From Siphonodentalium dalli (Eukaryota > Mollusca > Scaphopoda > Gadilida > Siphonodentaliidae): DNA of 64,000 bases. The position numbers were made by a program, and so were the translations under genes. A model generated the notes under the pieces. That model was not told the DNA's origin. It did not search any database and saw nothing but the letters and a program-made list of their open reading frames with translations. The stretch lies in contig CP136061.1 in NCBI GenBank assembly GCA_032622095.1, positions 42,477,797 to 42,541,796 on the forward strand, given 5' to 3'. Below, piece after piece: positions 41,421 to 60,554 of the stretch (its first letter is position 1; each line of letters opens with the position of its first letter).

Positions 41421-41916
41421 AAGGGATGATTAAGACATCACCGATAGGTGATAATTAATTTCTCCTAACATCTGGCACTGCGCAGTAGAGCCTTTGTTGT
41501 TGATTAATTACCGATGTGCGATCGTGGATTACTCTGGCTTACCGACAAGATTTCAGGGATGTTTTGACAGTGATATTCAAGCAAGGTTTCACAGGTTTCA
41601 TAGAAACCAAAATGGTTGAATAAACAATATATTGGTGATGATTAATTCCCAAACTTTGGACCAATAATAATTGTGAGAGTTTAAACCATATTATCAAATT
41701 GGAAAATGAGTGGAAAACGTTGCGACTGGTAGAATGAGTGGTTCGGGGGGCTAGCCCGGGATTGTCGGAAGGACCGAGTGGTCCTCCCCTTAATCCCTCA
41801 TGTTGTTGCCTTTATTTGTGATCATAAAAAAAATAAAATAAAATGGTAAGCATTTTGTGATGGTGATTATTTTTTATTTTTTCTTTTCTTCTTTGCATTT
41901 GGTTTTTCGGTTGATG
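41421..41916. other. Left flank of the Polinton; no gene seen
   Basis: No similarity to the tRNA-Glu array that flanks the right end. The last six bases before the element are TTGATG. Confidence 0.55.
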
Positions 41917-42271
41917 AGTAGTAATGGTGGGCACTATGGCCCAGTACCCCCCAGACATGGGCACTATGGCCCAGTACCCCCCAGACATGGGCACTATGGC
42001 CCAGTACCCCCCCAGACATGGGCACTATGGCCCAGTACCCCCCCAGACATGGGCACTATGGCCCATGGGCCATAGTGCCCATGTCTGGGGGGGTACTGGG
42101 CCATAGTGCCCATGTCTGGGGGGGTACTGGGCCATAGTGCCCATGTCTGGGGGGGTACTGGGCCATAGTGCCCATGTCTGGGGGGTACTGGGCCATAGTT
42201 CCCAGCCTGAGGATAGATGTTCCTGTCATTGATGTGACATTTCTGATCGAAAAAATGAAAATGGACTTAGA
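41917..42271 (+). repeat. Polinton left terminal inverted repeat
   Basis: The outer 12 bp (AGTAGTAATGGT) are followed by about five direct copies of a 30-bp unit (GGGCACTATGGCCCAGTACC plus 10 bases). A centre of symmetry lies at 42065/42066 (GGCCCATGGGCC), then come about five copies in reverse. The terminal repeat is thus itself a palindrome of about 270 bp. The inner 60-70 bp are unique (CCTGAGGATAGATGTTCC). Small differences in C-run length separate the units. Confidence 0.92.
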
Positions 42272-42351
42272 ATTATTTTTTTTCAAAAGGAAAATCTCAC
42301 TTTGGAAAATATCAATTAGCAATCAAGAGTTTTTCTTTTCGAATATTTGGT

Positions 42352-42367
42352 GGCCCTGAAAAGGGCC
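42352..42367 (-). terminator. Histone-type 3' stem-loop of the OTU-like gene
   Basis: On the minus strand, 20 nt after the stop, AAAACGG leads into GGCCCTTTTCAGGGCC and then ACCA. A 6-bp stem with a TTTC loop and these flanks is the signature of metazoan replication-dependent histone mRNA ends. A purine-rich stretch (GAAAAGAAAAAC) about 10 nt further could be the U7-pairing downstream element. Confidence 0.75.
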
Positions 42368-42386
42368 GTTTTATTTTTGTTATAGT

Positions 42387-42851
42387 TTAGAATCCGCCAC
42401 ATTGAACTTCTTTGTTCGCCAAAACTTCAATTGATTTGTCTCCTCGCCTCATCCATATTTCGCATTCACAATAATGCTCGTGGCAAACGTGTGGGATCCA
42501 CACTAGAGTTATTGATGACTTGAATCTTGGTGTTGATTTGTAGCCGCCTTTGGTAGCATCAAACATGACGATAGGTCGCTGTATAACAGTCGCCGCTAAT
42601 TCAACCATCAATCTTGATTCAGCCAAAAGTGGTGTGCGCCGTAAATCTTGTGCCGACGCACCAAGTTCGTCACTCTCTGCGTAGTACAGGTCAACTGCCG
42701 CATCTCTCAGAACCATCCATCCATCGGTCGTCCCGTAAACCCCGAGGCTGAGTGCCCTCCAAAACAGCGATATTTCTTCACCGTACACTGCTTTACAGTA
42801 TACCCCACCGGCCATTATCTCGTCAAGATCTGTTATGTTTACAGCAGTCAT
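42387..42851 (-). CDS. OTU-like protein, probable pseudoprotease (Polinton cargo)
   Basis: 154 residues from the ATG at 42851 (AAGATGACT context). An upstream in-frame ATG at 42926 adds 25 residues, but these are encoded by the duplicated promoter block and are probably leader. The pattern resembles an OTU-family deubiquitinase: SLFWRALSLGVYG aligns with the DGNCLFRALS block, then LRDAAVDLY, then ELAATVIQRPIVMF, and finally HEHYCECE where the catalytic His-aromatic lies. The usual nucleophile Cys is a Ser (residue 28) and the preceding Asp-Gly is Glu-Glu, so hydrolase activity is doubtful. It may bind ubiquitin or act as a decoy. The OTU assignment is from motif memory and is moderate. It is transcribed divergently from the gene at 43754 and ends in a histone-type stem-loop. 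Confidence 0.62.
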   Translation of the reverse strand: MTAVNITDLDEIMAGGVYCKAVYGEEISLFWRALSLGVYGTTDGWMVLRDAAVDLYYAESDELGASAQDLRRTPLLAESRLMVELAATVIQRPIVMFDATKGGYKSTPRFKSSITLVWIPHVCHEHYCECEIWMRRGDKSIEVLANKEVQCGGF

Positions 42852-42883
42852 CTTTGAATGTAGAATAAGTCTGAAGATCCGTC

Positions 42884-43717
42884 TTGAACATATATCACGA
42901 TTGCGCGGGCGGTAGAGAAAGCACATAATACTTTGACGTTAAAATGACAAATGCTCCCTGACGTTGTGTTTCTTTTCAGTGCATTATCTGTTAGTTTCAC
43001 CATTTCGATATGATGTAGATTAAATTCATGATAGTATATGCAATTAATTAAGATATTTTAACATATGAATTCATCTTCGTTCATAAACGATGACCAAGTA
43101 AAGTTATCAATTGTAATGATGAAGAAAAATGTTCAGTATGTTTTCTTGTGTTCAGTTTTATGTATAAAATATGTACATTTCCAAAAACAAAAACTAGAAA
43201 AACATTCCATATTTACCTAACGAGGTAATAAATATATCAATCATGTGTACCAAATAATAGATAATGATCTAACGAAATTAAAAACATTTGTTTGATCGCT
43301 ATGCAATAATGATCAAGAAAAATATGAATGCTGATCCGTCTCTGAAAAAACACAACGCCAGGAAACATTTGTCAATTTTAACGTCAATGCGACATGTGAT
43401 TTCATTGACGCCCGTGTAACAATCTTGTGTTCAGTTTTATGTATAAAATATGTACAATTCCAAAAACAAAAACTAGAAAAACATTCCATATTTGCCTAAC
43501 GAGGTAATAAATATATCAATCATGTGTGCCAAATAATAGATAATGATCTAACGAAATTAAAAACATTTGTTTGATCGCTATGCAATAATGATCAAGAAAA
43601 ATATGATTGCTGATCCGTCTCTGAAAAAACACAACGCCAGGAAACATTTGTCAATTTTAACGTCAATGCGACATGTGATTTCATTGACGCCCGTGTCAAA
43701 TGTATAAAAATATTTTC
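42884..43717. promoter_or_regulatory. Bidirectional promoter block, copy 1 (834 bp)
   Basis: It lies between divergent genes. It is repeated with the same length and almost no change at 44774-45607. A TATA box (TATAAAAATA) at 43703-43712 faces the + gene. A conserved 38-bp element with TGACGTTAAAA occurs at 42934-42971 and, inverted, at 43349-43386 and 43628-43665. This makes the block partly symmetrical. The + side contains a 279-bp tandem duplication (43145-43423 and 43424-43699). TGACGT is a CRE/ATF-like core, which is only a suggestion. Confidence 0.75.
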
Positions 43718-43753
43718 GAATTTGATCAACGTTACATTGCATTGCTATCAAAG

Positions 43754-44242
43754 ATGGATCCGTTAACAGAATTTCTTCAGAGTGAGATATACAGTAATCC
43801 TGTTGTACAGAATACATATGCGGCACCACAGTCAACAGGCCAAGCTAATACGACAATGACTATAGGTGGAGATACACTCATTTTAAAAGCGATTTTAGAT
43901 GAACTGAGATGTCTTCGCAGGGATATTGACGTGAAAACACAAGTAACGCATCAAGAAGTAAAAGTGAATCTTCGTTTCGTTGCAGAAGAGATAGATATAC
44001 CAATCAGGGTTCATGATGTTCAGAGATCGAAAGAACAGAAACAGATCAAAAAAGAAAAAATATTATCGGCGAAAGAAAAAGAACCTAAAAGTATCATGAA
44101 GCCTTCTACTGAGACAAAAGTCAGATTTCGTCTTCCTTGTAAAGAATCTAAAGATACAGAGAAAAGTGATGAATTCGCAAAAGCTATTGGTTCTCATGGG
44201 AAAGATATGTCAAGATATAAGAAAAACACAAAACGATGTTAA
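43754..44242 (+). CDS. Polinton accessory protein, unknown, basic C-terminal half
   Basis: 162 residues from the ATG at 43754 (AAAGATGGA context). An in-frame ATG at 43700 overlaps the TATA box and is very unlikely to be used. The N-terminal 50 residues are Q/T/N-rich. The middle (ILDELRCLRRDID) may form a short helix or coiled coil. The last 70 residues are rich in Lys/Glu (KEQKQIKKEKILSAKEKE) with a basic end. I recognise no domain. It shares its promoter with the OTU-like gene and ends 22 nt before a histone-type stem-loop. It has no similarity to the corresponding gene of the second cassette at 45633. Confidence 0.7.
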   Translation: MDPLTEFLQSEIYSNPVVQNTYAAPQSTGQANTTMTIGGDTLILKAILDELRCLRRDIDVKTQVTHQEVKVNLRFVAEEIDIPIRVHDVQRSKEQKQIKKEKILSAKEKEPKSIMKPSTETKVRFRLPCKESKDTEKSDEFAKAIGSHGKDMSRYKKNTKRC

Positions 44243-44264
44243 AGTCAGATGATAATTTTAAAAC

Positions 44265-44280
44265 GGCCCTTTTCAGGGCC
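44265..44280 (+). terminator. Histone-type 3' stem-loop of the 43754 gene
   Basis: GGCCCTTTTCAGGGCC preceded by AAAAC and followed by ACACACA. The 90 bp from here to 44355 align with 46003-46093, so the whole 3' end is shared between the two cassettes. Confidence 0.75.
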
Positions 44281-44349
44281 ACACACATTTCCCAAAAGGT
44301 TACTCTTTCATTGCTGAAAAAATCAAAAACACGATTGTTCAATTTATAT

Positions 44350-44355
44350 TTTATT
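44350..44355 (-). terminator. Possible poly(A) signal, minus strand
   Basis: AATAAA on the minus strand, in a position equivalent to the one at 46088. It lies beyond the stem-loops of the minus-strand gene at 44549 and could serve as a back-up signal. Confidence 0.45.
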
Positions 44356-44491
44356 CAACAACAAATATTTGCAAGTATATTTTGTTTTAAATTATTCGTG
44401 GCGTGATTTTTTCAAAACAAAACATAGGGTACAAAGAACATTATTAGTTATTAAGCAATGCTAAAAGTTTTTCTTTTTGAAAAAATTGGTT

Positions 44492-44507
44492 GGTCCTGAA
44501 AAGGACC
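44492..44507 (-). terminator. Second histone-type stem-loop, with compensatory base pair
   Basis: On the minus strand it reads GGTCCTTTTCAGGACC. Relative to the other loops, the third stem base changed C to T and its partner G to A, so pairing is kept. Purine-rich CAAAAAGAAAAAC follows about 13 nt downstream, a candidate downstream element. Confidence 0.72.
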
Positions 44508-44519
44508 GTTTTTGTTTTT

Positions 44520-44535
44520 GGCCCTGAAAAGGGCC
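44520..44535 (-). terminator. First histone-type stem-loop of the 44549 gene
   Basis: On the minus strand AAAACGGCCCTTTTCAGGGC plus CA lies 13 nt after the stop codon. It is followed after 12 nt by the variant loop at 44492, so this gene has two in tandem. Confidence 0.75.
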
Positions 44536-44548
44536 GTTTTGTATGGCA

Positions 44549-44737
44549 TCAAAGTTCACGCCACGATTTTCTTTTGAGACTTTTGCTTTTGTTCCAACGC
44601 TGTTGTTTTTTGCATATTTGCATAACCAGTTTTGCACTGGCGGTTACTTCTTTTGCGTGTCCGGTCCGCATTATCTGGGGTGTTAGCCCTATCGTTCCTC
44701 TTAGTATAGACATCAACGGTTCGGGGATTTCGGACAT
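44549..44737 (-). CDS. Small Polinton accessory protein, unknown (62 aa)
   Basis: I chose the ATG at 44737 because it lies in the same CATTCAAAGATG context as the start of the OTU-like gene at 42851, just outside the shared promoter block. A longer 86-codon frame from 44816 (44556-44816) reads out of the promoter in another frame and is probably a leader frame. The protein begins MSEIPEPLMSILRG and ends in a basic tail (KSKSLKRKSW). No domain recognised. It occupies the slot that the OTU-like gene holds in the first cassette. Confidence 0.55.
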   Translation of the reverse strand: MSEIPEPLMSILRGTIGLTPQIMRTGHAKEVTASAKLVMQICKKQQRWNKSKSLKRKSWREL

Positions 44738-44773
44738 CTTTGAATGCAGAATAAAAATTGTTCACGGCCGTGT

Positions 44774-45607
44774 TTGAACATATATCACGATTGCGCGGGC
44801 GGTAGAGAAAGCACATAATACTTTGACGTTAAAATGACAAATGCTCCCTGACGTTGTGTTTCTTTTCAGTGCATTATCTGTTAGTTTCACCATTTCGATA
44901 TGATGTAGATTAAATTCATGATAGTATATGCAATTAATTAAGATATTTTAACATATGAATTCATCTTCGTTCATAAACGATGACCAAGTAAAGTTATCAA
45001 TTGTAATGATGAAGAAAAATGTTCAGTATGTTTTCTTGTGTTCAGTTTTATGTATAAAATATGTACATTTCCAAAAACAAAAACTAGAAAAACATTCCAT
45101 ATTTGCCTAACGAGGTAATAAATATATCAATCATGTGTACCAAATAATAGATAATGATCTAACGAAATTAAAAACATTTGTTTGATCGCTATGCAATAAT
45201 GATCAAGAAAAATATGAATGCTGATCCGTCTCTGAAAAAACACAACGCCAGGAAACATTTGTCAATTTTAACGTCAATGCGACATGTGATTTCATTGACG
45301 CCCGTGTAACAATCTTGTGTTCAGTTTTATGTATAAAATATGTACAATTCCAAAAACAAAAACTAGAAAAACATTCCATATTTGCCTAACGAGGTAATAA
45401 ATATATCAATCATGTGTGCCAAATAATAGATAATGATCTAACGAAATTAAAAACATTTGTTTGATCGCTATGCAATAATGATCAAGAAAAATATGATTGC
45501 TGATCCGTCTCTGAAAAAACACAACGCCAGGAAACATTTGTCAATTTTAACGTCAATGCGACATGTGATTTCATTGACGCCCGTGTCAAATGTATAAAAA
45601 TATTTTC
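44774..45607. promoter_or_regulatory. Bidirectional promoter block, copy 2 (834 bp)
   Basis: Near-identical to 42884-43717 (offset 1,890 bp). I noticed one base difference by eye (TTTACC versus TTTGCC near 45102). The + TATA box lies at 45593-45602, 31 bp before the ATG at 45633. It includes the same internal 279-bp duplication and the inverted TGACGTTAAAA elements. Confidence 0.75.
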
Positions 45608-45632
45608 ACTTTTTCAGTGAACTTCATTCATC

Positions 45633-45983
45633 ATGCCGTCTCTAAAGAAATTTTTCAAGAAGCTATGGAGGAAGAGAGATTCGTCAGAGGAGACGAAAAT
45701 CAGAACCTATAGGAAATGGCAGGATTCTCCTGAACAAAAGGTGGTGCAGAAACAGATGTTAACAGATTTTCTGGCTCGGCGACGACCATCGGCTGAAGTA
45801 TGTGATCAAGAACCAAGCAATCTTGATCTCGGGGAGATCTTGTCACAGATCTCGAAGAAAGATCTGTGCAATGCAGCAATTGACAGCTTCGCTCAGGCTG
45901 CTGCGGCGCACAGATCAAATCCTACTTGGTCTGTGACAATTAACCCCAACGGGATATATCCTGATTTGGCAGAATTTTTATGA
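45633..45983 (+). CDS. Polinton accessory protein with basic amphipathic N-terminus, unknown
   Basis: 116 residues. The first 15 (MPSLKKFFKKLWRKR) form a strongly basic amphipathic helix on inspection, which could contact membranes or nucleic acid. The middle is charged (EETKIRTYRKWQDSPEQ). The C-terminal third (AAIDSFAQAAAAHRSNPTW) is more neutral. No family recognised. It is driven by the second copy of the bidirectional promoter and followed 19 nt later by a histone-type stem-loop. The coding sequence is unrelated to the gene in the same position of cassette 1. Confidence 0.68.
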   Translation: MPSLKKFFKKLWRKRDSSEETKIRTYRKWQDSPEQKVVQKQMLTDFLARRRPSAEVCDQEPSNLDLGEILSQISKKDLCNAAIDSFAQAAAAHRSNPTWSVTINPNGIYPDLAEFL

Positions 45984-46002
45984 ATTCTGTAAAAGAAAAA
46001 AC

Positions 46003-46018
46003 GGCCCTTTTCAGGGCC
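46003..46018 (+). terminator. Histone-type 3' stem-loop of the 45633 gene
   Basis: AAAAACGGCCCTTTTCAGGG plus CC, then ACCCACA. The 3' flank ACCCA matches the metazoan histone consensus exactly as I know it. It is the closest match in the window. Confidence 0.8.
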
Positions 46019-46087
46019 ACCCACATTCCCCAAAAGGTTACTCTTTCATAGCTGAAAAAAACAAAACACGATTGTTCAATTCATAAT

Positions 46088-46108: not shown

Positions 46109-46711
46109 TCAAATGTTTGTATCGATTCGTTTATCTGTTTTTGGAATGTAGAATGGTCTCAGCTTCTTTTTCTTGGAAGTTTTCTTGGAATTTTCAAAAT
46201 CTGGATTTTTATCTTCAGATTTGTTCTGTGAATCATTCGTAGGATCAACAGGTCGGGGTTGTTTGAAAACATCTGATGTTGTAGACATCTCTTCAGTTTT
46301 GATATCTGCATTTTGTTCTTGTATTGTTACTGCTTGTAGACATTTTTGTATAGTTTTCACATTTTTTTTGTCGCCGAAATCTGTTTTACAATGGAAGGAC
46401 CAATGGGATTCTTGTCCGCATTTGTAACAGTAACCATATGGCGGTTTCCAATTTTTATCAGCTTTGTTTTTCTCTTGTTTCTCTTGCCATTGCATTTTGT
46501 TACAAAGTTTAAACAAATTGGCAGAGATCTGTCTCATTTCGACAAGATTATCTTGAATTTTTCTAGTCTGTGGCTGTGTAGATTTTTTTGAATCTTCTTT
46601 ATGTAGCTCAATATAGCTCTCTTCAATAACTGCAGGCCTTGGTCTTTTTCTAACAATATCTTCTTCGCTGGAGGCGTCGTCTGAAACAGGTCTTTTAATT
46701 CTCTTAAACAT
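46109..46711 (-). CDS. CCHC zinc-knuckle protein sharing its N-terminus with the polymerase
   Basis: 200 residues from the ATG at 46711 (AAAAATGTTT context). A further in-frame ATG at 46807 lies upstream of the TATA box and is rejected. Residues 1-32 (FKRIKRPVSDDASSEE onward) are identical to the start of the polymerase, because both are encoded by the arms of one palindrome. A single C-x2-C-x4-H-x4-C knuckle (CYKCGQESHWSFHC) lies near residue 92, as in retroviral nucleocapsids and other single-strand nucleic-acid binders. The C-terminal part is charged and lysine-rich (KKTSKKKKLRPF). Role inferred: nucleic-acid binding that accompanies replication or packaging. Confidence 0.78.
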   Translation of the reverse strand: MFKRIKRPVSDDASSEEDIVRKRPRPAVIEESYIELHKEDSKKSTQPQTRKIQDNLVEMRQISANLFKLCNKMQWQEKQEKNKADKNWKPPYGYCYKCGQESHWSFHCKTDFGDKKNVKTIQKCLQAVTIQEQNADIKTEEMSTTSDVFKQPRPVDPTNDSQNKSEDKNPDFENSKKTSKKKKLRPFYIPKTDKRIDTNI

Positions 46712-47010
46712 TTTTGTCTTGAGTTTTGTCAGCAAAAAATATTGCGACTGGCTTCTTCGGAGTTGAAGTGTAAAGTGTAGAATTACATCTGCTTTTATAG
46801 CTTTCATCGCGAATGCTATAAAAAGCTATAAAAGCAGATGTAATTCTACACTTTACACTTCAACTCCGAAGAAGCCAGTCGCAATATTTTTTGCTGACAA
46901 AACTCAAGACAAAAATGTTTAAGAGAATTAAAAGACCTGTTTCAGACGACGCCTCCAGCGAAGAAGATATTGTTAGAAAAAGACCAAGGCCTGCAGTTAT
47001 TGAAGAGAGC
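46616..47010. promoter_or_regulatory. Palindromic divergent promoter plus shared coding starts (185-bp arms)
   Basis: The arms 46616-46800 and 46826-47010 are perfectly complementary by eye, with a 25-bp spacer. Each arm carries a TATA box (TATAAAAG: minus 46792-46799, plus 46827-46834), a leader, an ATG (46711 and 46915, equidistant from 46813) and the first 32 codons. Expression of the two genes should be balanced, and the DNA could extrude a cruciform. Confidence 0.85.
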
Positions 47011-50000
47011 GATATGGAAACTGATAAGGTAGAAAGTGAAGAGAGCTATATGGAAACTGATGAGGCAGAAAGTGAAGAGAGCTATATGGAAACTGATAGG
47101 GCAGAAAGTTCTAGTGATGGGCAGATTGGACGCGGTCGAAGACAGAATAGAGAAATTGGTGGGAAGAGAAAGAGAAGTCTGGCTAGAGAGCGTGTTGTGT
47201 TCAATCCAACAAAATATTTCAAAATGGAGCTGAACTCGGAGAAATTTTCCAGAAAATTTAAATCAGCATCACGACAATTTGGTGTGAAATTCGAGAAATT
47301 TACAGATCCAATCGAAAACATTCCAGAGATATTTGAGAAGTTGACAGAAGAATTGAAACAGAAATGTTCAGCAAATGAGAAGACAAGAATCAGAGTTACG
47401 ATAAATCATCCAGGACTTGATATGAGCATTTTCATTCCATTCACAAAAGCCAGTGAATTGAATGGTGGGACACTCATGGATAATATTCAAAATGTGGTTC
47501 AATCAAATGCAGCCTTTACAATTCATGACGGTGCACTCAATTTCGAAATCTTCGTTACAGATATTCCGGAAGGTGGTACACGACACTCACTACATTATGG
47601 ACCATTTGCAGACAAGAACAAGTTGACAAAAGTAAAAAGAAGTATTGTCCGGATTGAAAATGCTGATGATGTTATGTGTATGGCAAGATCTATTGTCGTC
47701 GGAATGTGTAAGGCAGATAGTGATGGATCTGCGTGCTGGTCAAAGATATGGAAAAGAATAAGACAATCAATATACACAGCACAAACAGATGCAGCAAAAA
47801 ATCTACTCAACCGTGCTGGCATTCCACACGATACAGTTTGCAGTATCAATGAGTTCCACAAGATTCAAGAAATATTGTATCCAGAATATGTTGTGAAAAT
47901 TCACAATGAATTTGCTGGCGCTGGATTTCTATTTGAACCTGCAGAAATGTGTTCGGATAGCAAATGTGTACACATCTACTACAACAACAATCACTTCGAC
48001 ACCATAACATCAATCAAAGGATTTCTAGGCACCAGCTACTACTGCGAATTCTGCGACATTGGATTCCATATGCGTGGCGATCATCGATGCAGATTTGTTT
48101 GTGCATGCTGGTCATTGACACAGTGTAATTTCACAAATTGGGTGAAGTGTAGAACGTGTCAACGATCATTCAGAAGTAAATCATGTTTCGACAACCATTT
48201 GAAGACGGAAGGAAAACAGAAAAGAAAAATATGTGATTTGGTTCAACTATGCAACAATTGTGATGAAGAAATTCTCATCAATAAATCAAGCAGACATATA
48301 TGTGCGGGGTTGAAGAAATGCAAACATTGCAAAGAAATCGTTGAAGCAGATCACAGGTGCTACATTCCAAAATATGAATCACCGGAAAAGAAACCTGCAA
48401 AGATTCCATATGTATTCTTTGACTTTGAATGCAGACAAGACACAGGGGTTCATATTCCAAACTTCTGTGTTGCACATACCGCTTGTGGAGATTGCATGTG
48501 CAAACCAATCGAAGAAAAATGTGAAACATGCGGACCGGATTCCAGAGAATTTGTATTCAAGGGTGACAACGTTTTAACAGACTTCACAAACTGGTTATTC
48601 CACCAAGATCACAAAGGATGTGTTGCAATAGCACATAATGCTCAGGGATACGATGCACAGTTTCTACTTCAAACACTCATACAAAGTGGAATTCATAAAC
48701 CAGAACTGATCATGAATGGAAACAAGATTCTCAGTTTAAAATGCAACAGCGTGAAAGTTATTGATTCTCTGAGTTTTCTGATGATGCCGCTTTCAAAGTT
48801 TCCACAAACTTTTCAGCTGAATGAGATGGCGAAAGGACACTTTCCACATTGGGCGAATTCACCAAAGTTTCAAAATTACATTGGACATTACTTGGCTTCT
48901 GATTACTACAAACCAGACATGATGAGCGTGGAAAATCGAGAGAAATTCTTTGAATGGTACAATGAGAAAATAGAAAATTACGTGATATTCAACTTCCAAG
49001 AAGAGATGGAGAAGTACTGCAAATCAGACGTGGATATTCTTCGCCGTGGATGTGGAAAATTCAGGAAATACATATTGGAAACAGAACAGATTGACCCGTT
49101 CATTGAGTCAATAACATTGGCGCAAGTTTGCAATTTGGCATGGAGGAAGAATTCAATGCCAGAGAAAACAATTGGAATCATTCCAGATGGTGGATACCCA
49201 TGTGCTAAAAACTATTCCATGAAAGCGATACGTTGGCTTCAACATATATCATTGTCACGTATGATAACAATCAAGCATGCTTTGAATGGAGGAGAAATCA
49301 AGATTGGTGGACACTACGTCGATGGATATGAGGAAGCCACAAGAACAGTTTTTGAGATGAATGGATGTCTGTTTCATGGATGTCCAAAATGTTACAACAA
49401 CAGACAATACAAGAATCCCTATACGATGCTCACCATGGAAGAATTATATACAAGAACCCAACAGAAGAAAGATGAACTGGAAAGTCTTGGTTACAGAGTT
49501 GAATCAATTTGGGAGCATCAGATCGACGAAAGAATGAAATCGGATGTGAAATTCAAACAACAAATGGAATCTTTCTACAAACATCGAGACCCCATTTTGC
49601 CAAGAGAAGCATTGTTTGGTGGACGTACAAATGCCATCAAATTGTACGAGGAAATTGATCAAGATTCCACAAAAGAAATCAAGTTCATCGATGTGTGTTC
49701 GTTGTATCCATTTTGCAACAAATATAAATTCTACCCTGTTGGACATCCAGAAATTTTGAGCCAAGAGCAGATCGATCAAGAACACATTAGAGACTATGCG
49801 GGGCTTGTTAAATGTACAATTTTACCACCATCGAAATTGTATATTCCAGTTCTACCGATTCATTGTAACAAGAAAATGGTTTTTACTCTGTGTAACACTT
49901 GTGCCATCAATGAGAACGAGGCATGTAACCATTCAGAAGAAGATCGAGCTATAACCGGAGTGTGGACCACGCCAGAATTATTCAAAGCAATGGATGTTGG

Positions 50001-50943
50001 CTACAAAATACTTGATGTGTACCAAATTTGGCATTGGACAGATTGGACAGATGAAATATACAAATCCTATATCGATAAACATCTAAAGATCAAACAGGAA
50101 TGTAGTGGTTATCCATTTGGTGTTGAGACAGAAGAACAGAAACAAAAGTTTGTACAGGATTATTATGCAGCTGAGGGTATAAAATTGGAGAACATCGAGA
50201 AGAATCCAGGAAAACGTCAAATATCTAAAATTATGATTAATTGTATATGGGGTAAGAATGCACAAAGAAATCTTATGTCAAAAACAGAGTATGTGGATAA
50301 ACCATCACGTTATTTTGAATTGCTTACTAGTAACAATATAATTGTTCAAAATGTTACACTTCTTGATGGTGACAAATTCATTCTGGTAAATTATGTTGAC
50401 ATCTTAGATAATATTGAACCTCATCATTCAGCAAATGTTGTTGTTGCTTCTTTTGTTACAGCGTATGCAAGATTACAATTGTATAAAGTTTTAGAAAAAC
50501 TTGGAGATAGAGTGCTGTATTTTGATACAGACAGCTGTATGTATGTCAGTGATCCATCAAAGAAGAACATCAAAACTATCGAAGGAAGATTGGGGAAATG
50601 GAGCGACGAACATCCAGATGCAAAGATTGTCAAATTTGTTGGACTTGGGCCAAAGAACTACGGATATGAATACATCAAAGATGGGAGAAGATACACCAAA
50701 TGTAAGGTAAAAGGTATCACTCTTGATTACAGCACAAGTCAAAAAGTTAATTTTGAAACAATGGTACAATGTGTTAATGATCGTGAAAATTTCAAAACTG
50801 TTGTTGAGTATCCTTCCAGAATTAAAAGACAAAAGAACCATCAATTGATTAGTGAGTGTCAAACCAAAACTTTCAGATCGGTGTACACAAAACGAAAACT
50901 CGTCAATGGTATTTATACATACCCATACGGATGGAGATGTTGA
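46915..50943 (+). CDS. POLB: Protein-primed family B DNA polymerase
   Basis: 1,342 residues. I start at the first ATG (46915). The open frame extends eight codons upstream to a TTG, but the palindromic symmetry supports this ATG. N-terminal residues 1-75 are acidic/basic with three 11-residue ESEESYMETD-type repeats. Cys/His clusters lie near residues 380-490. Exonuclease motifs are FDFE (D503), NAQGYD (N575) and YCKSD (Y701, D705). A Vsr-endonuclease-like insert (FEMNGCLFHGCPKC from about 813, WEHQ) follows. Polymerase motifs are DVCSLYP (926), KIMINCIWG (1105) and YFDTDS (D1204). These match the protein-primed polymerases of Polintons, which replicate the linear element from terminal-protein-primed ends. 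All catalytic acidic residues are present. Confidence 0.97.
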   Translation: MFKRIKRPVSDDASSEEDIVRKRPRPAVIEESDMETDKVESEESYMETDEAESEESYMETDRAESSSDGQIGRGRRQNREIGGKRKRSLARERVVFNPTKYFKMELNSEKFSRKFKSASRQFGVKFEKFTDPIENIPEIFEKLTEELKQKCSANEKTRIRVTINHPGLDMSIFIPFTKASELNGGTLMDNIQNVVQSNAAFTIHDGALNFEIFVTDIPEGGTRHSLHYGPFADKNKLTKVKRSIVRIENADDVMCMARSIVVGMCKADSDGSACWSKIWKRIRQSIYTAQTDAAKNLLNRAGIPHDTVCSINEFHKIQEILYPEYVVKIHNEFAGAGFLFEPAEMCSDSKCVHIYYNNNHFDTITSIKGFLGTSYYCEFCDIGFHMRGDHRCRFVCACWSLTQCNFTNWVKCRTCQRSFRSKSCFDNHLKTEGKQKRKICDLVQLCNNCDEEILINKSSRHICAGLKKCKHCKEIVEADHRCYIPKYESPEKKPAKIPYVFFDFECRQDTGVHIPNFCVAHTACGDCMCKPIEEKCETCGPDSREFVFKGDNVLTDFTNWLFHQDHKGCVAIAHNAQGYDAQFLLQTLIQSGIHKPELIMNGNKILSLKCNSVKVIDSLSFLMMPLSKFPQTFQLNEMAKGHFPHWANSPKFQNYIGHYLASDYYKPDMMSVENREKFFEWYNEKIENYVIFNFQEEMEKYCKSDVDILRRGCGKFRKYILETEQIDPFIESITLAQVCNLAWRKNSMPEKTIGIIPDGGYPCAKNYSMKAIRWLQHISLSRMITIKHALNGGEIKIGGHYVDGYEEATRTVFEMNGCLFHGCPKCYNNRQYKNPYTMLTMEELYTRTQQKKDELESLGYRVESIWEHQIDERMKSDVKFKQQMESFYKHRDPILPREALFGGRTNAIKLYEEIDQDSTKEIKFIDVCSLYPFCNKYKFYPVGHPEILSQEQIDQEHIRDYAGLVKCTILPPSKLYIPVLPIHCNKKMVFTLCNTCAINENEACNHSEEDRAITGVWTTPELFKAMDVGYKILDVYQIWHWTDWTDEIYKSYIDKHLKIKQECSGYPFGVETEEQKQKFVQDYYAAEGIKLENIEKNPGKRQISKIMINCIWGKNAQRNLMSKTEYVDKPSRYFELLTSNNIIVQNVTLLDGDKFILVNYVDILDNIEPHHSANVVVASFVTAYARLQLYKVLEKLGDRVLYFDTDSCMYVSDPSKKNIKTIEGRLGKWSDEHPDAKIVKFVGLGPKNYGYEYIKDGRRYTKCKVKGITLDYSTSQKVNFETMVQCVNDRENFKTVVEYPSRIKRQKNHQLISECQTKTFRSVYTKRKLVNGIYTYPYGWRC

Positions 50944-51610: not shown

Positions 51611-52261
51611 ATGGAAGAATCTTTACTTTTCCAACATCCGTGTAATTTCTTTATCAGTGGACCTAGTGGATCAGGTAAAACAGAATTTGTTAAAAAAGTT
51701 ATTGAATTTAAACACGATTTATTCCAAACACCACCAAAGAAAATAGTTTGGTGTTACAAAGAATGGCAAGACACATACAATCGTATAAAAGAAATTGATA
51801 ACGTTGAGTTTATCGATGGTATTCCAGACGATGATGAGGAAATTGTATCAGATAAATCATTTCCTCATCTTGTTGTTTTCGATGACATGATGGGGGAACA
51901 AGATGAAGACAAAATAATGCTTTGGTTTACTAGAAAAGGACACCATCGAAATGCTTCAATAATTTACATTACTCAAAACATGTTCCAAAAATCAAAAAGT
52001 AGCAGAACTATAAGTTTGAATGCACACTACATGGTTTTATTTCAAAGCGTTCGAGATAAAAATCAAATAAAAGTTTTGGCTCATCAAATGCAAACCAATC
52101 ATTTGAAACAAGCATACGAAGATGCAACTTCAATAAATCATGGATATATTTTAGTAGATTTTCATCCTAGAACAGAAAATTATTTGCGAATTAGAACTGA
52201 TATTTTCCATAAATGGTTGACAGCTAATGACCGAGGTCCTGTCATTTATTCAAAAGTATAA
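51611..52261 (+). CDS. ATP: A32/FtsK-type DNA packaging ATPase
   Basis: 216 residues. Walker A is GPSGSGKT (residues 17-24), Walker B is LVVFDD (87-92) and a conserved polar segment is YITQNMF (119-125). Length and layout fit the genome-packaging ATPases of Polintons, virophages and related viruses with double-jelly-roll capsids, which drive DNA into preformed capsids. The start at 51611 follows the polymerase-downstream gene by 33 bp. The end overlaps a longer reading of the next frame, but not its likely start at 52296. Confidence 0.93.
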   Translation: MEESLLFQHPCNFFISGPSGSGKTEFVKKVIEFKHDLFQTPPKKIVWCYKEWQDTYNRIKEIDNVEFIDGIPDDDEEIVSDKSFPHLVVFDDMMGEQDEDKIMLWFTRKGHHRNASIIYITQNMFQKSKSSRTISLNAHYMVLFQSVRDKNQIKVLAHQMQTNHLKQAYEDATSINHGYILVDFHPRTENYLRIRTDIFHKWLTANDRGPVIYSKV

Positions 52262-53322: not shown

Positions 53323-54042
53323 ATGAAGAAAATGGTTATTGTACCATTCAGAATGTTGGAAGATTTCAAACAATGGAAAATGTCAGAAATGAATAAACCT
53401 CAATTACCTCCTGATCCTGCAATTTCAAATGTTTCAGATTCTTACAAAGAATTGAAATCAGTTTATGATAAAAATATTTCTGAATCAGAAAAGGCACAGT
53501 TATTTGGAGAAAATTTGTACAAATTGAAAACTTCACAAAAATCTTTAAATTCAAAATTCAGTTTACCTGAACAAAAGTTATCTGAAAACTTTGGGAACAT
53601 GAGTGAACATATATTGGAAAGTGTTCCATCTAAACTTCGTGGTAAAGCACAACAAATTTTAACATTGTTGTCAACTAATCCTAAACTTAGATGGGATGAT
53701 CGTGGACAATTAATTTATGGAACAGAAACAGTTACTGGATCAAATATAATTGATTTGATAAACGATGTTGTTCGTCACCGAAAAGGTTTTGACCCAGTTG
53801 GTTATGAAACATTCCTACGTGGATTGGGGGAACTTAATGTACCACAAGATTATGTAGGTAACAGGAATCGATGGTTGTGGATACAAAGACATTTAAAAGG
53901 TCACACTGGTGATGAGTTTCATACACCTCATGCAACTCCTAGCAGTGGCAAGTCAAGAAAACGTTCAGTTGATATTTTCACACCTCAAAGTTTTCCTAAA
54001 ACCAGAAAATCTATTTTGAAAGAATGGTCCCCACTTACATAA
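53323..54042 (+). CDS. Conserved Polinton protein of unknown function (239 aa)
   Basis: The ATG at 53323 lies 20 bp after the previous stop. The N-terminal part is helical and charged. The central block LRWDDRGQLIYGTETVTGSN followed by IIDLIND and RHRKGFDP..GYETFLRGL resembles a domain I have seen repeatedly in invertebrate Polintons. The end is basic and Ser/Thr-rich. The stop overlaps the integrase start by 19 bp. The function is not known to me. Confidence 0.75.
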   Translation: MKKMVIVPFRMLEDFKQWKMSEMNKPQLPPDPAISNVSDSYKELKSVYDKNISESEKAQLFGENLYKLKTSQKSLNSKFSLPEQKLSENFGNMSEHILESVPSKLRGKAQQILTLLSTNPKLRWDDRGQLIYGTETVTGSNIIDLINDVVRHRKGFDPVGYETFLRGLGELNVPQDYVGNRNRWLWIQRHLKGHTGDEFHTPHATPSSGKSRKRSVDIFTPQSFPKTRKSILKEWSPLT

Positions 54043-55118
54043 AATTTGACAAACTTCTAACTGAAATTTACTACAATCCAAAAGAAGTTGGTGGTTTCAG
54101 TGGAGCAAATCAACTTTTTAAAAATGCAAAAGAAACAAATAACAAAATTAAACTTTCAGATGTTAAAAAATGGTTACAATGGCAAAAAACATATACTTTG
54201 CACAAACCAATTGTTCGGAAATTTCGCAGACGTAAAACTATTGTTGCAGGAATTGATATTCAGTGGCAAGCTGATCTGGCAGATTTGCAAACTTTGCAAA
54301 AGCACAATGACAAATACAGATATTTACTTTGTGTTATTGATGTGTTCTCAAAATTTGCATGGGTTGAAAAAATTAAAGACAAAACTGGTAAAACTTTAGT
54401 TAAAACATTTCAGAAAATTCTCAAATCATCAAAACGAAAACCAGCTTCATTTCAATCTGACAAAGGTTCCGAATTCAAAAATAAATTATTTTTACAATTT
54501 TTGAAATCTAAGAAAATTCATTTTTTCACAACAGAGAATCCAGAGACAAAGGCAAGTATAGTTGAACGTTTTCAACGGACATTGAAAACAAAGATGTGGA
54601 AATATTTTACACATAATCAAACTTTGAAATACGTTGATGTTTTGCACGATTTTGTGAATTCTTACAACAAAAGTTTTCATAGAAGTATTAAGATGGCACC
54701 AGTTTTAGTAACTCGAAAAAATGAAATTGAAGTTTCCAGAAATCTTTATGGAAAGTTAAAAACGAAAAAAGATAAGATGTTGAAAGTTGGAGATTTTGTT
54801 AGAATAAATAAAACAAAGAGAACTTTTGATAAAGGATATCTTCCAAATTGGACAAAAGAAATTTTCAAAATTAGTAGAGTTTGTAAAAGTACACCATTAA
54901 CTTACAAATTAGTAGATTTAGATGGTGAAAACATCGCAGGATCATTTTATGGTAAAGAAATTCAACATATAAAAGATAATAAAGTTTACGAAATTGAATC
55001 AGTTGTTGGTAAACGTTCAAGAAAAGTTGCTGGTAAATCAGTTAGAGAAATTAAAGTTCATTGGGGTGGTTATCCTAAAAAATTTGACAGTTGGATTCCT
55101 GCCACAAATTTGGTATAA
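54024..55118 (+). CDS. INT: Retroviral-type integrase with C-terminal chromodomain
   Basis: 364 residues. The rve catalytic core has D84 (WQADL), D146 (QSDKGSEF) and E181 (ASIVERF), with 34 residues between the last two, the classic D,D-35-E spacing. Upstream, WLQWQKTYTLHKP and FRRRKTIVAG fit Polinton integrases. The C-terminus (YEIESVVGKRS..REIKVHWGGYPKKFDSWIP) is a chromodomain-like module that may guide integration to chromatin. The enzyme joins element ends to target DNA with a 6-bp stagger in known Polintons. It overlaps the preceding gene by 19 bp, with A at -3 and G at +4 around the ATG. Confidence 0.96.
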   Translation: MVPTYIKFDKLLTEIYYNPKEVGGFSGANQLFKNAKETNNKIKLSDVKKWLQWQKTYTLHKPIVRKFRRRKTIVAGIDIQWQADLADLQTLQKHNDKYRYLLCVIDVFSKFAWVEKIKDKTGKTLVKTFQKILKSSKRKPASFQSDKGSEFKNKLFLQFLKSKKIHFFTTENPETKASIVERFQRTLKTKMWKYFTHNQTLKYVDVLHDFVNSYNKSFHRSIKMAPVLVTRKNEIEVSRNLYGKLKTKKDKMLKVGDFVRINKTKRTFDKGYLPNWTKEIFKISRVCKSTPLTYKLVDLDGENIAGSFYGKEIQHIKDNKVYEIESVVGKRSRKVAGKSVREIKVHWGGYPKKFDSWIPATNLV

Positions 55119-56622: not shown

Positions 56623-57927
56623 ATGGCACAAATGGTAAATGGATCATGCGAATGCAATAAATCGGAACTTGATATAACACATGTTCCACCAACGGTGGCT
56701 ACAATGTCAGAATCGCAGTGGATCGAAAATCATCCTATTGCACCGCTGAATAATTCTGCTCCGATAGAGTTTGTCATACCATCTCAAACCGAAAAGTGGA
56801 CAGATATTAATCAATCTTATCTTTATGTGAAATTCAAAATTACAAAAAAAGATGGAACTAATTTGGTAGCTGCTACGGAATTAGCACCTGTTAACAATTT
56901 CTTTCATAGCATGTTCAGCAGTATCGATGTTTACTTGAACAACAAATTGATAACTTCGAATTCTGACACTTACCCATACCGAGCATATTTCGAAAATCTG
57001 TTGGGATACTCTCCAGAATATAAAGATAATCAATTAGCAAATTTAGAAATGTGGTATGGCGATACAGCAGAACAATTTGAAGAGAATACCAAAGGTGGTG
57101 CCAATGCTGGATTAACTTCTAGAGAAAGTTTGATCGGTGGTAGTAAAATTGTTGAACTATGTGGACGCTTACACACTGATCTGTTTCTTCAAGAAAAATA
57201 TTTACCAAATGGAATTGAAATTCGTATCAGATTAAACAGATCACCATCAAAATTTTGCCTCATTGGCGGCGAGGATGGACAAATTGTTTTCGAATCAGCA
57301 GTGTTCCATGTCAGAACAGTTAGTCTCTTTCCAGCGGTCTCAAATAAATTAAATCAAGAAATTGTCCAGTCAAAAATGAAAATACCTATCAGACGAGTAG
57401 AAATAAAAACTTTCACAATTAGTACTGGACTTAGATCAAAAATTGAAGACCACTTATTTCAAGGACAATTACCAAAGAGAATTTTTATTGCGTTGGTCGA
57501 AAATAAAGATATGAATGGAGATTTGGGTACCAATCCATTCCACTTCAAACATTTCAGTTTGAATAAATTGGAAGTTAGTCAAGACGGTCATACAATACAT
57601 AACCGTCCATTTGAACCAAACTTCGCAACAAAACAATGTCTCAGATCATATTTATCTTTGTATCAATCTTTAGGAATGGTTGGTGTTAACAAATCAATTG
57701 GCATTAATTTAAACGAATATATGAATGGTTATTGTTTGTGGGGTTTCGACTTGACACCGGACCAAGGAAGCGACGAGGGACATCTACATCCTATAAAGAC
57801 AGGGAACCTGCGTTTGGAGCTTCAGTTCTTGACAGCTCTCACTACAGCCGTCAACGTTTTGGTGTATGCTGAATTCGACAGTGAAATAGAGATCACAGCT
57901 TTGAGAGAAGTGCTTACTGACTATTAG
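56623..57927 (+). CDS. MCP: Major capsid protein (double jelly roll)
   Basis: 434 residues. PIEFVIPSQTEKWTDIN (about residues 48-64), SYLYVKFKITKKDG, NNFFHSMFSSIDVYLNNKLI and YPYRAYFENLLGYS are the conserved first-barrel blocks of Polinton major capsid proteins. The C-terminal GNLRLELQF..NVLVYAEFDSEIEI fits the second barrel. It forms the trimeric hexon-like capsomers of the presumed icosahedral particle. The frame is intact. It is two bases from the preceding gene and one base from the next. Confidence 0.95.
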   Translation: MAQMVNGSCECNKSELDITHVPPTVATMSESQWIENHPIAPLNNSAPIEFVIPSQTEKWTDINQSYLYVKFKITKKDGTNLVAATELAPVNNFFHSMFSSIDVYLNNKLITSNSDTYPYRAYFENLLGYSPEYKDNQLANLEMWYGDTAEQFEENTKGGANAGLTSRESLIGGSKIVELCGRLHTDLFLQEKYLPNGIEIRIRLNRSPSKFCLIGGEDGQIVFESAVFHVRTVSLFPAVSNKLNQEIVQSKMKIPIRRVEIKTFTISTGLRSKIEDHLFQGQLPKRIFIALVENKDMNGDLGTNPFHFKHFSLNKLEVSQDGHTIHNRPFEPNFATKQCLRSYLSLYQSLGMVGVNKSIGINLNEYMNGYCLWGFDLTPDQGSDEGHLHPIKTGNLRLELQFLTALTTAVNVLVYAEFDSEIEITALREVLTDY

Positions 57928-57928
57928 G

Positions 57929-58387
57929 ATGGAGCTCACAACACAGCTATGGAACTACTATGAAGAATACCGACGTTCACAACACGTTGCTCCGAGATTA
58001 AAACTGATCTTGGACACACTCAACAACGCTACGATTGAAGAACTACAAGAAATTATTCGCAAGGAAGTGTCAGCAAACTGTGAAGGATGTAAAATAGAAC
58101 ATCCTAGTCAACGTGAACATGTTCTGTGTTTGTTCTCTACAACTGATGATTGGACAAACCAGTTTATCGACTTAGCACTGATTAAACTTGACATATACAA
58201 TGTTATGGAAAGATGGTTCCCGAAGCTGATGGAGTTAAACCCACACTGCAAGGAGAAGTTCGAAGCATACCTTATGTGGGATCATCTGAGAAACAGTTTG
58301 GAGCTCAACCGCAAAAAAATCGATGCAGAGTGGACTCTGATGTGGTCACAGCGAGTCAAAGAGAATTACAACGATGCAGACAGCTGA
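57929..58387 (+). CDS. Polinton protein with Cys/His motif, unknown (152 aa)
   Basis: The ATG lies directly after the capsid stop. The centre has CEGCKIEHPSQREHVLCL (residues about 51-68), a C-x2-C..H..H-x3-C arrangement that could bind zinc. I recall similar GC..HPSQ..H.C motifs in other invertebrate Polintons. The rest is mostly helical, with several Trp residues near the C-terminus. It overlaps the protease start by 14 bp. Function unknown. Confidence 0.75.
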   Translation: MELTTQLWNYYEEYRRSQHVAPRLKLILDTLNNATIEELQEIIRKEVSANCEGCKIEHPSQREHVLCLFSTTDDWTNQFIDLALIKLDIYNVMERWFPKLMELNPHCKEKFEAYLMWDHLRNSLELNRKKIDAEWTLMWSQRVKENYNDADS

Positions 58388-58847
58388 ACTTCAATATATT
58401 CTAGACAATTCCTGGTTGCGTAAACTTAACACATATGTTTGTGCTAGAGATCTGTTACCAGAGAAGAAACCACAACATATTCAAGCATATATTGTGAACA
58501 CGCACTCATCGGATCAGCCAGGAGAACACTGGACCTTGATGTTATTCAAGGGAAGATCAGCTGTATACTTCGACTCATTTGGACTACCACCACCGAGACG
58601 ATATATGTTACCATTCATAAAAAGGAACTCATCAGCATGGACTATGAATACAACACGATATCAACATCGTGCGACAAATGTGTGTGGATTATATTGTATA
58701 TTCGCACTCCACCACATGATGAAAGGAAAGAGGATGAAAAGATTATTCAATTCTCGGGATTTCTTCAAGAATGACAGAACAATAGTTCGATGGTTTGGAA
58801 AGCACTATGGTCGATTATACAGAAAAGCAAATTTGCTGTTGAATTAA
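58374..58847 (+). CDS. PRO: Adenovirus-type cysteine protease
   Basis: 157 residues. The catalytic residues fit the adenain family: His52 (GEHW), Asp67 (YFDSFG), Gln97 (RYQH) and Cys104 (NVCGLYC). This enzyme matures virion proteins in adenoviruses and is a hallmark gene of Polintons. It is the last gene before the right terminal repeat, and its length is usual. The start at 58374 overlaps the preceding gene. Confidence 0.93.
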   Translation: MQTAELQYILDNSWLRKLNTYVCARDLLPEKKPQHIQAYIVNTHSSDQPGEHWTLMLFKGRSAVYFDSFGLPPPRRYMLPFIKRNSSAWTMNTTRYQHRATNVCGLYCIFALHHMMKGKRMKRLFNSRDFFKNDRTIVRWFGKHYGRLYRKANLLLN

Positions 58848-59221
58848 ACTTCACCAGGACATCGACGGCTGATATACATACAACGCAAAGAAGACGACGA
58901 CCAGATAACAACGAATGTGTCAACAACTCCACAAAAATAGACTCTTTTGTTATTGATTCAGCGTAGGATGTTGTAGGATGTTCAATTAAGTTTCTTCAAA
59001 TCTGAGACCTTGTTTTGTACATAAATTATTGTTCTTTTTAATATTATTGATGTATAATAATATATTATTGTTCATTGTTCTTGTTCTTGTTTTTGAAAAA
59101 TAAAATGATAAATTTCAACAAAATCGTTTTCACTGTAGGACCCCACCATTTGATTCTGTTCGTGTCGATGTGTCATCTCTGGTCAGAATTATACAAACTT
59201 TAAATTAGTAATGAAAAAATG
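58848..59221 (+). other. 3' region of the late gene block
   Basis: No further gene. AATAAA at 59099-59104 is a plausible poly(A) signal for the + strand transcripts. There is no histone-type stem-loop here, unlike the cargo genes at the left end. Confidence 0.6.
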
Positions 59222-59572
59222 TCTAAGTCCATTTTCATTTTTTCGATCAGAAATGTCACATCAATGACAGGAACATCTATCCTCAGGCTGGGAACTATGG
59301 CCCAGTACCCCCCAGACATGGGCACTATGGCCCAGTACCCCCCAGACATGGGCACTATGGCCCAGTACCCCCCCAGACATGGGCACTATGGCCCAGTACC
59401 CCCCAGACATGGGCACTATGGCCCATGGGCCATAGTGCCCATGTCTGGGGGGTACTGGGCCATAGTGCCCATGTCTGGGGGGTACTGGGCCATAGTGCCC
59501 ATGTCTGGGGGGTACTGGGCCATAGTGCCCATGTCTGGGGGGTACTGGGCCATAGTGCCCACCATTACTACT
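59222..59572 (-). repeat. Polinton right terminal inverted repeat
   Basis: Reverse complement of 41917-42271 with small differences in repeat-unit C-runs. The internal centre of symmetry is at 59425/59426. It ends ACCATTACTACT at 59572. An extra ACT follows, which could be a slipped triplet. Confidence 0.92.
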
Positions 59573-59579
59573 ACTGCCA

Positions 59580-59651
59580 TCCCATGTGGTCTAGTGGTTA
59601 GGATTCCTGGCTTTCACCCAGGCGGCCCGGGTTCGATTCCCGGCATGGGAA
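59580..59651 (+). tRNA. tRNA-Glu (UUC), unit 1, plus
   Basis: 72 nt including the discriminator A. The acceptor stem is TCCCATG/CATGGGA, the anticodon loop is CTTTCAC (59611-59617) with anticodon TTC, and the T arm is CCGGGTTCGATTCCCGG. No intron. The T-run at 59663-59666 ends Pol III transcription. Confidence 0.95.
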
Positions 59652-60482: not shown

Positions 60483-60554
60483 TCCCATGTGGTCTAGTGG
60501 TTAGGATTCCTGGCTTTCACCCAGGCGGCCCGGGTTCGATTCCCGGCATGGGAA
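60483..60554 (+). tRNA. tRNA-Glu (UUC), unit 2, plus
   Basis: Identical copy, 903 bp after the first. Confidence 0.95.

Follow-up and report, generated by a model that had tools for sequence, protein, structure and literature searches.

Histone-type mRNA 3′-end signals at the accessory genes of a Polinton in the scaphopod Siphonodentalium dalli

Polinton/Maverick elements and adintoviruses are characterized by a family B polymerase, an A32-like ATPase, an rve integrase, an adenain-like protease, terminal inverted repeats and a variable set of accessory genes, all of which recur in the locus described here, the protease as a candidate just under its Pfam cut-off. The second system with which this locus bears comparison is the 3′ end of replication-dependent histone mRNAs, which is served by SLBP and U7 and modeled in Rfam as Histone3 (RF00032, cut-off 34 bits). 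Virus-borne histone homologues have been described, such as the adomavirus "Histoid" in the accessible text of PMC11071296. We found no account of histone-type mRNA ends in the Polinton, Maverick or adintovirus literature, within the accessible portions of reports that include PMC11071296 and PMC12775136. A sequence-only reading of a 64,000-nucleotide stretch of S. dalli contig CP136061.1 (hereafter the window) had nonetheless interpreted five stem-loops behind Polinton accessory genes as histone 3′-end signals, and this interpretation is supported by the analysis reported here.

The element and its accessory genes

The element is bounded by inverted repeats with approximate limits 41916..42279 and 59214..59572, and no clear target duplication was seen by eye at its ends. 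It is identified as a Polinton/Maverick by a family B DNA polymerase (46915..50943, + strand; PF03175, 1.5e-39), a retroviral-type integrase (54024..55118, +; PF00665, 1e-12, with a chromo match to PF00385 just under cut-off at 23.8 of 25.1 bits) and an A32-like packaging ATPase (51611..52261, +; PF04665, 8.3e-9, 35.7 bits for a cut-off of 22.8). A candidate adenain-like protease (58374..58847, +) falls just under the PF00770 cut-off (20.0 of 21.3 bits) and has an AATAAA 252 nt downstream. The product of 56623..57927 (+) we take, from its position and size, to be the major capsid protein; it has no Pfam match above cut-off and belongs to a large, unnamed family of 1004 homologues (best identity 65%), with relatives that include the clam Mercenaria (63%). 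A zinc-knuckle-like gene, zk (46109..46711, −, 200 aa), matches PF00098 under cut-off (14.9 bits) and has an AATAAA 16 nt past its stop. Queries with the capsid candidate and the polymerase returned no relatives in IMG/VR, while prokaryote genomes yielded one 3597-base contig, filed under a Candidatus Poribacteria MAG, with a polymerase 33% identical, which is too short to hold accessory genes. Since there are thus no usable relatives elsewhere, hairpin conservation was gauged only inside the host genome. Three IMG/VR contigs contain the hairpin motif, but Rfam did not match any of them at E 0.1, and they were taken as chance occurrences.

The four accessory genes are arranged in two divergent pairs. 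Between m1 (42387..42851, −, 154 aa) and p1 (43754..44242, +, 162 aa) lies a promoter region (42884..43717) with direct repeats D1 and D3, which is repeated at 44774..45607, between m2 (44549..44737, −, 62 aa) and p2 (45633..45983, +, 116 aa). By eye, these promoters contain TATA-like boxes, with CATTCA next in three of four. A cap-site motif is known for histones; no convincing homology of the element promoters with host histone promoters was seen by eye.

None of m1, p1, m2, p2, zk or three proteins tried from a second, diverged family of elements (family II) has a Pfam match above cut-off, and the window's four accessory genes, being without such a match, were not recognized as encoding histones. 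A protein search found no homologue of m1, whose PDB matches, to ribosomal protein L3, have E values of 0.05 or worse; m2 has a single PDB match (E 1.8), and its homologues are confirmed in family I only. AlphaFold models made without alignment for accessory proteins have pLDDT values of 34.7 and 45.2. By eye, m1 may resemble an OTU-like fold minus its cysteine. An LxCxE (Rb-binding-like) motif in p1 is missing from family II p1 and was therefore set aside as a functional clue, as was a kinship of m2 with H4, for which a weak C-terminal likeness (1/300 shuffles; 0 to 498 of 500 across variants) is accompanied by no likeness at the DNA level.

Hairpins and downstream elements in the window

All five stem-loops that had been reported are exact motif matches, at 42352 (−), 44265 (+), 44492 (−), 44520 (−) and 46003 (+), for 0.02 expected from 100 dinucleotide shuffles of the window. 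Each lies, as described, on the strand of its own accessory gene and shortly past the stop codon, at measured distances of 14-42 nt: hairpins start 20, 23, 14 and 20 nt after the stops of m1, p1, m2 and p2, respectively, and m2 has a second one that starts 42 nt past its stop. Four share the sequence GGCCCTTTTCAGGGCC, while the one at 44492 reads GGTCCTTTTCAGGACC and indeed shows the stem-keeping compensatory pair change noted earlier, which is present in 30 of the 30 copies examined and was counted as a single event. When scored with the Histone3 covariance model, a check that the sequence-only reading had proposed, four hairpins exceed the cut-off and display a 6-bp stem and a 4-nt loop: those of m1 (42352..42367, −; 41.8 bits, Rfam match 42326-42372), p2 (46003..46018, +; 40.2 bits, 45998-46042) and p1 (44265..44280, +; 40.1 bits, 44260-44304), and the second hairpin of m2 (44492..44507, −; 37.1 bits, 44466-44512). 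The fifth, which is the upstream member of the m2 tandem pair (44520..44535, −), reaches 22.2 bits; its 3′ flank is the next hairpin, and it has no downstream element of its own. A scan of the window with RF00032 returned no further match above cut-off, and the core genes are therefore without hairpin, as had been stated. Matches to microRNA families at 42.0 and 46.8 kb were rejected, being below cut-off and derived from palindromic repeats.

Purine-rich elements are found 12 or 13 nt past the stem in four of the five signals. These read AAAAGAAAAAC for m1 (42329..42339, −; 12 nt), AAAAGGTTACTCTT for both p1 (44294..44307, +; 13 nt) and p2 (46032..46045, +; 13 nt), and AAAAAGAAAAAC for m2 (44467..44478, −; 13 nt), the host H2B counterpart of the last being AAAAAGATAAAC, likewise 13 nt past the stem. 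Such stretches had been noticed after the minus-strand hairpins, where they do occur, but they are not confined there, considering their presence at +13 on the plus strand. The proposed ACCCA or ACCA 3′ flank is exact in two of five signals (46003 and 42352), but the others read ACACA, AACCA and AAAAA. More broadly, all five host histone flanks have the start of the purine core 13 nt past the stem, and eight of the 11 flanks on the element side have it at 12-14 nt; a core of this kind is absent from II_m3 in family II. When ten element flanks were compared with host histone flanks (two flanks of captured H4 genes were set aside), the likeness of nine was reached by 0-15 of 1000 shuffles, with 0 for m1, which resembles the flank of host H2B, 0 for m2, 1 for p1 and 8 for p2. 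The tenth, that of the upstream hairpin of the tandem pair, shows no likeness (873/1000). The m1 flank also gives a 60-nt BLASTN match, 86.7% identical, to a host H2B 3′ end. A search for U7 with Rfam RF00066 found no match here, and none in controls either.

It could be argued that the hairpins act without SLBP and irrespective of the cell cycle, as compact terminators or as stabilizing 3′ ends where convergent genes are crowded together, with polyadenylation taking place nearby. Consistent with this, p1/m2 and p2/zk are convergent, and AATAAA lies close to some hairpins, starting 8 nt before that of m1 and, in another instance, 194 nt past the m2 stop, so that back-up polyadenylation is possible for these two genes. 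A plain terminator, however, requires neither loop and flank nucleotides that fit Histone3 nor a U7-type purine element at nearly fixed spacing, and p1 and p2 have no AATAAA or ATTAAA within 300 nt of their stops, which makes this explanation quite improbable. The neighboring zk gene and the last core gene both have AATAAA and no hairpin.

Host histone genes, element copies and a captured H4 gene

Comparison with the host's own histone genes, which had also been suggested, shows that the hairpins are identical and that the downstream elements match. The H2A, H2B and H4 genes of the C5, C8 and C9 arrays carry the same 16-nt hairpin as the element, followed by a purine-rich element, and score 40.8-42.4 bits in the two stretches scanned; other copies of the window's element reach 44.2 bits. 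AATAAA is also found downstream of host H2A and H2B. The stretches searched in C5 and C8 yielded no H3 or H1. Among 75 places scored, 63 have positions that put them in the histone arrays of C5 and C8, and the remaining 12, when read, proved to lie within Polinton copies. Genome-wide, there are 2055 exact motif matches, host histones included, versus none for the reversed pattern.

Elsewhere in this genome, related Polintons carry the signal too, as the earlier reading would have it. One family II element was read; it is damaged, its polymerase matches being split and its integrase matched only at the end. Its main core genes are 47-78% identical to those of the window and its accessory proteins 25-34%, with 44/128 identical residues for m1, 24/95 for p1 and 27/88 for p2 (0/500 shuffles in each case). 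Its four exact hairpins all follow accessory genes, its core genes having none, so that in both elements examined for it hairpins are confined to accessory genes. Two of these pass the Histone3 cut-off (p2, 39.1 bits; m3, 34.6 bits), and the exact p1 and m1 hairpins score below 34 bits; AATAAA occurs 65 nt past the start of the p2 hairpin and 173 nt past that of m1. The p1 copies in C1:0-110 Mb were chosen by protein rather than by hairpin, from the best 150 of 494 and of 453 candidates, and an exact hairpin follows all 26 (16/16 in family I, 10/10 in family II). The notion that the hairpins arose by chance or that the genes are mis-called can draw on the small size of the ORFs and on m2, with 62 aa and no confirmed homologue beyond family I. 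It is nevertheless contradicted by the excess of matches in the window and in the genome, by the family II element and by the diverged homologues of m1, p1 and p2, which are open frames, and its likelihood is negligible.

In some copies there is an H4 gene, captured from the host, that has a hairpin of its own. An H4-like gene, found in other copies only, stands in one of them behind m2's promoter sequence. In copy L078 the encoded protein scores 22.8 against a Pfam histone cut-off of 26.4 while passing the CENP-T and TAF histone-fold models; the name H4 is used for the gene on account of its DNA, which matches places in the C9 array at 94-97% identity, one such stretch holding host H4 genes. 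Captured H4 is not visibly constrained, since amino-acid differences (4-9) outnumber silent ones (0-2). This capture shows that histone 3′ ends can be dragged in by recombination, and the hairpins might accordingly be relics of such events, multiplied with the element and playing no part in accessory expression. The near-identity of 30 family I copies, in which 1/1952 hairpin positions and 10/14588 flank positions differ, is in line with that view, and makes hairpin identity within this family uninformative. We consider relics unlikely, given that exact hairpins persist in two families in spite of the divergence of their accessory proteins, that the change at 44492 is compensatory, and that intact frames, to which distances refer (some other stretches have none), keep the hairpin 14-28 nt past the stop and on the same strand, except in copy L073 (3 nt, stop shifted). 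Moreover, no change is seen in the hairpins of the 10 family II p1 copies versus 4.4 expected (P ~0.013), a rough estimate that uses our own protein-to-DNA conversion on copies sharing ancestry and is thus indicative only. In copy L091, the m1 slot is occupied by a different ORF without hairpin.

Proposed use of the signal and its known counterparts

In our view, the hairpins and purine elements are probably working replication-dependent histone 3′-end signals, taken long ago from host histones and kept for the accessory genes. Since the element's hairpin is the same as the host histone signal, it is probable that the accessory transcripts end by cleavage, lack a poly(A) tail and are linked to replication. 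Under this model, the hairpin would be a binding site for host SLBP and the downstream element one for U7 snRNP, with cleavage of the nascent mRNA a few nucleotides past the stem. Production of accessory proteins would then be largely limited to times when SLBP is available, in S phase and perhaps in the germ line and early embryo. The element may benefit in that accessory expression would then be timed to its own opportunities for replication or movement; its core genes and zk would rely on ordinary polyadenylation. We also find it fairly likely that this Polinton virus lineage carries a cell-cycle-gated, poly(A)-free cassette borrowed from host histones, in which a shared divergent promoter and an SLBP/U7 3′ end frame exchangeable cargo.

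To our knowledge, these would be the first non-histone mRNAs of a virus or transposon to be processed via SLBP/U7. If this is true, a selfish element would have a way of tying its gene expression to S phase, and it would be clear why such genes could go undetected in poly(A)-selected RNA-seq; the 2055 exact motif matches of this single genome, host histones among them, represent a natural test set for SLBP/U7 requirements.

SLBP reportedly binds the frameshift element of SARS-CoV-2, a viral use of SLBP that involves a frameshift element rather than an mRNA-ending histone hairpin. Virus-borne histones share with our element a histone gene in a virus-like genome, here H4-like and in some copies, but the accessible text of PMC11071296 makes no mention of histone-type mRNA ends, whereas here the 3′ signal is on non-histone genes. 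A further counterpart is the replication-dependent histone mRNA 3′ end itself, to which the signals correspond in their 6-bp stem, UUUC loop, A-rich 5′ flank, purine element at 12-14 nt and short distance to the stop codon, the hairpin being that of host H2A, H2B and H4. The difference is that in the window they end non-histone genes, in a mobile element.

Layout of the window Polinton and its hairpin-ended genes

An integrated Polinton occupies ~17.6 kb of the window, at roughly 41.9-59.57 kb, and is bounded by terminal inverted repeats. Its family B polymerase, A32-like ATPase and rve integrase score above the Pfam cut-offs, and its adenain-like protease falls just below. Two modules occupy the part left of the polymerase, and each is made of two divergent accessory genes: m1(-)/p1(+) with a promoter region at 42884-43717, and m2(-)/p2(+) with a promoter region at 44774-45607. 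These promoter regions are repeats of each other (99-100% identical) and the coding parts of the two modules look unrelated, a cassette-like layout of repeated promoter block and unrelated coding sequences. The block contains a tandem 279-bp repeat.

All four accessory genes end alike, in a hairpin, of which m2 has two in tandem (m2a and m2b). The window holds five exact matches to the hairpin motif, against 0.02 expected. As the sequence-only reading had proposed, they resemble the 3' stem-loop of replication-dependent histone mRNAs: Histone3, the Rfam covariance model of that stem-loop (RF00032, cut-off 34 bits), scores four of them at 41.8, 40.2, 40.1 and 37.1 bits, although m2a, at 22.2 bits, falls short. 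The core genes are without hairpins, as also proposed, since a Rfam scan found no further Histone3 match above the cut-off in the 64 kb. The next gene after the modules, the zinc-knuckle-like zk(-), lacks a hairpin; its stop is followed 16 nt on by an AATAAA. This gene and the polymerase form a divergent pair within a 212-nt inverted repeat (46593-47033, 96%), and because both genes start inside this repeat, their proteins share the first ~31 residues. Another AATAAA, at 42370(-), starts 8 nt ahead of the m1 hairpin, which would open both 3'-end pathways to m1; back-up polyadenylation is possible for m1 and m2. The right end of the Polinton stops ~8 bp short of a tRNA gene (anticodon Glu, read by eye). 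This gene opens an array of ~903-bp units (59573-64000), in which every unit has a pair of oppositely oriented tRNA genes; there are 10 tRNA matches.

Identity with the host histone signal

The hairpin of the element is that of the host's own histone genes. The 2,226,750,531 bases of the host genome (nine contigs), the sole host genome compared, contain at least 75 Histone3 places, all above the cut-off, a lower bound with scores given for the best candidates only. By position, 63 of these lie in tandem arrays on contigs C5 and C8, where the stretches read contain H4, H2A and H2B; the other 12 are dispersed, and each of them, on reading, lies within a Polinton copy. Those host H2A, H2B and H4 genes that were read share their hairpin, GGCCCTTTTCAGGGCC, with the element; in the host genes it starts 30-37 nt past the stop. 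A third histone array, on contig C9, carries it as well.

U7-like purine stretches, which the sequence-only reading had suggested for the minus-strand hairpins, follow the stem in most flanks. A purine core begins at +13 after the stem in all five host flanks (from C5 and C8). Of 11 element-side flanks, eight have it at +12 to +14; the exceptions are m2a, II_m3 (a gene of a diverged Polinton family, family II, in the same genome) and L080, a stretch from elsewhere in the genome (at +18). When 50-nt flanks were aligned, with anchoring, to eight host flanks, the score was reached in family I, that of the window, by 0 (m1), 1 (p1), 0 (m2b) and 8 (p2) of 1000 shuffles, and by 2 for a p1 variant; in family II, by 3 (p1), 0 (p2), 0 (m1) and 15 (m3). 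The m2a flank is unlike the host's, its score being reached by 873 of 1000. The 3' end of m1 also matches that of host H2B over 60 nt (86.7%, BLASTN). A Rfam search of the host did not find U7 snRNA, and control sequences were equally without match. For mouse histone H2a, an AAAGAG purine core is described, with cleavage between stem-loop and downstream element (PMC7026596); in the clam Lucina pectinata, every histone mRNA studied is reported to have a stem-loop, with purine-rich elements close to some of them (PMC6210712).

Hairpins across Polinton copies and a diverged family

The exact pattern GGYCCTTTTCAGGRCCAC has 2055 matches in the genome, host histones included (reversed control, 0). 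The first 100 matches span C1, 0-110 Mb, and from these we took 20 stretches, chosen for unusual spacing. On our own reading, 18 contain Polinton accessory genes or remnants, several without an intact frame. Two stretches, L080 and L084, have a histone-type hairpin below the Rfam cut-off and no recognisable Polinton accessory frame nearby.

Family II came to light in these 20 stretches. In one element of this family, at C1:49.327-49.347 Mb, the genes for polymerase, ATPase, capsid, penton-like protein and protease are 47-78% identical to those of the window, with identities as low as 26% for smaller core ORFs. The element is damaged: polymerase matches are split, and the integrase match covers the last 79 residues only. 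II_m1, II_p1 and II_p2 are homologues of window m1, p1 and p2 (44/128, 24/95 and 27/88 identical), and II_m3, at the right end, is related to m1 (21/69), each with 0/500 shuffles. An exact hairpin ends all four, starting 14-20 nt past the stop, and there is none among the core genes of this one element. The signal is restricted to accessory genes in two elements and present across diverged families. Histone3 passes the hairpins of II_p2 (39.1) and II_m3 (34.6); those of II_p1 and II_m1 are below the cut-off.

That the loops are present in related Polintons of the same genome is shown by these four genes and by p1 copies picked by protein search, which scored the best 150 of 494 candidates for family I and the best 150 of 453 for family II. 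Among these copies, the exact motif follows 16/16 of family I and 10/10 of family II in C1:0-110 Mb, 20-25 nt past the last matched p1 codon. Identity is 99-100% in all 150 of family I, a recent burst, and 77-100% in those of family II; the two candidate counts indicate a very high Polinton copy number in this genome. For the ten family II copies (protein 86-100% identical), a rough neutral estimate by our own conversion (protein change / 2.2) predicts 4.4 changes in the 16 fixed hairpin positions, and 0 were seen (P ~0.013), which counts only as support because the copies share history. Divergence among 30 family I copies is too low to test hairpin conservation: the m1 hairpin is unchanged in 29 (the remaining copy has a wobble pair), those of p1 and both of m2 in 30/30 each, and that of p2 in the 2/2 copies reached.

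A captured histone H4 and the proposed working of the signal

In L078, a stretch chosen for its hairpin, the element's promoter sequence is followed by an H4-like frame, complete at 104 aa, in the position held by m2 in the window. In a DNA search with this gene, the best 40 of 1407 candidates comprise 29 places in the C9 array (where host H4, H2A and H2B occur together in one stretch) and 11 dispersed ones. We read four of the latter, L089 (which coincides with L078) and L090-L092, and all four adjoin element genes. L078, L090, L091 and L092 have 0-2 silent and 4-9 amino-acid differences from C9 H4, and one extra residue. A host histone gene was therefore captured, its own hairpin and downstream element included, in what looks like a recent event, and it is under no visible constraint. 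In L091, the m1 slot (549-1043(-)) holds a different ORF without hairpin, with AATAAA downstream and a weak Death-domain match (PF00531, 15.1 bits, cut-off 22.6), so the hairpin seems to move with the gene rather than the slot. In p1 (43754-44242), LPCKE, which fits the LxCxE type of motif associated with Rb binding, is followed by acidic residues; the p1 of family II that was examined lacks it.

By title or abstract, open-licence papers on Polintons or adintoviruses and histones gave no description of histone-type mRNA ends (weak evidence), and those on histone stem-loops in viruses, transposons and non-histone genes, or on histone-gene capture by transposable elements, gave nothing comparable. 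In the pathway of SLBP, which binds the hairpin, and the U7 snRNP, such a signal directs cutting a few nucleotides after the stem, leaves the mRNA without poly(A) and ties its use to S phase. The accessory mRNAs of the Polinton would likewise be cut after the stem, lack poly(A) and be used in S phase, and the element may gain by making them while the host replicates its DNA. Histone mRNAs themselves are described as carrying a stem-loop instead of poly(A) and as being degraded when S phase ends (PMC12775136).
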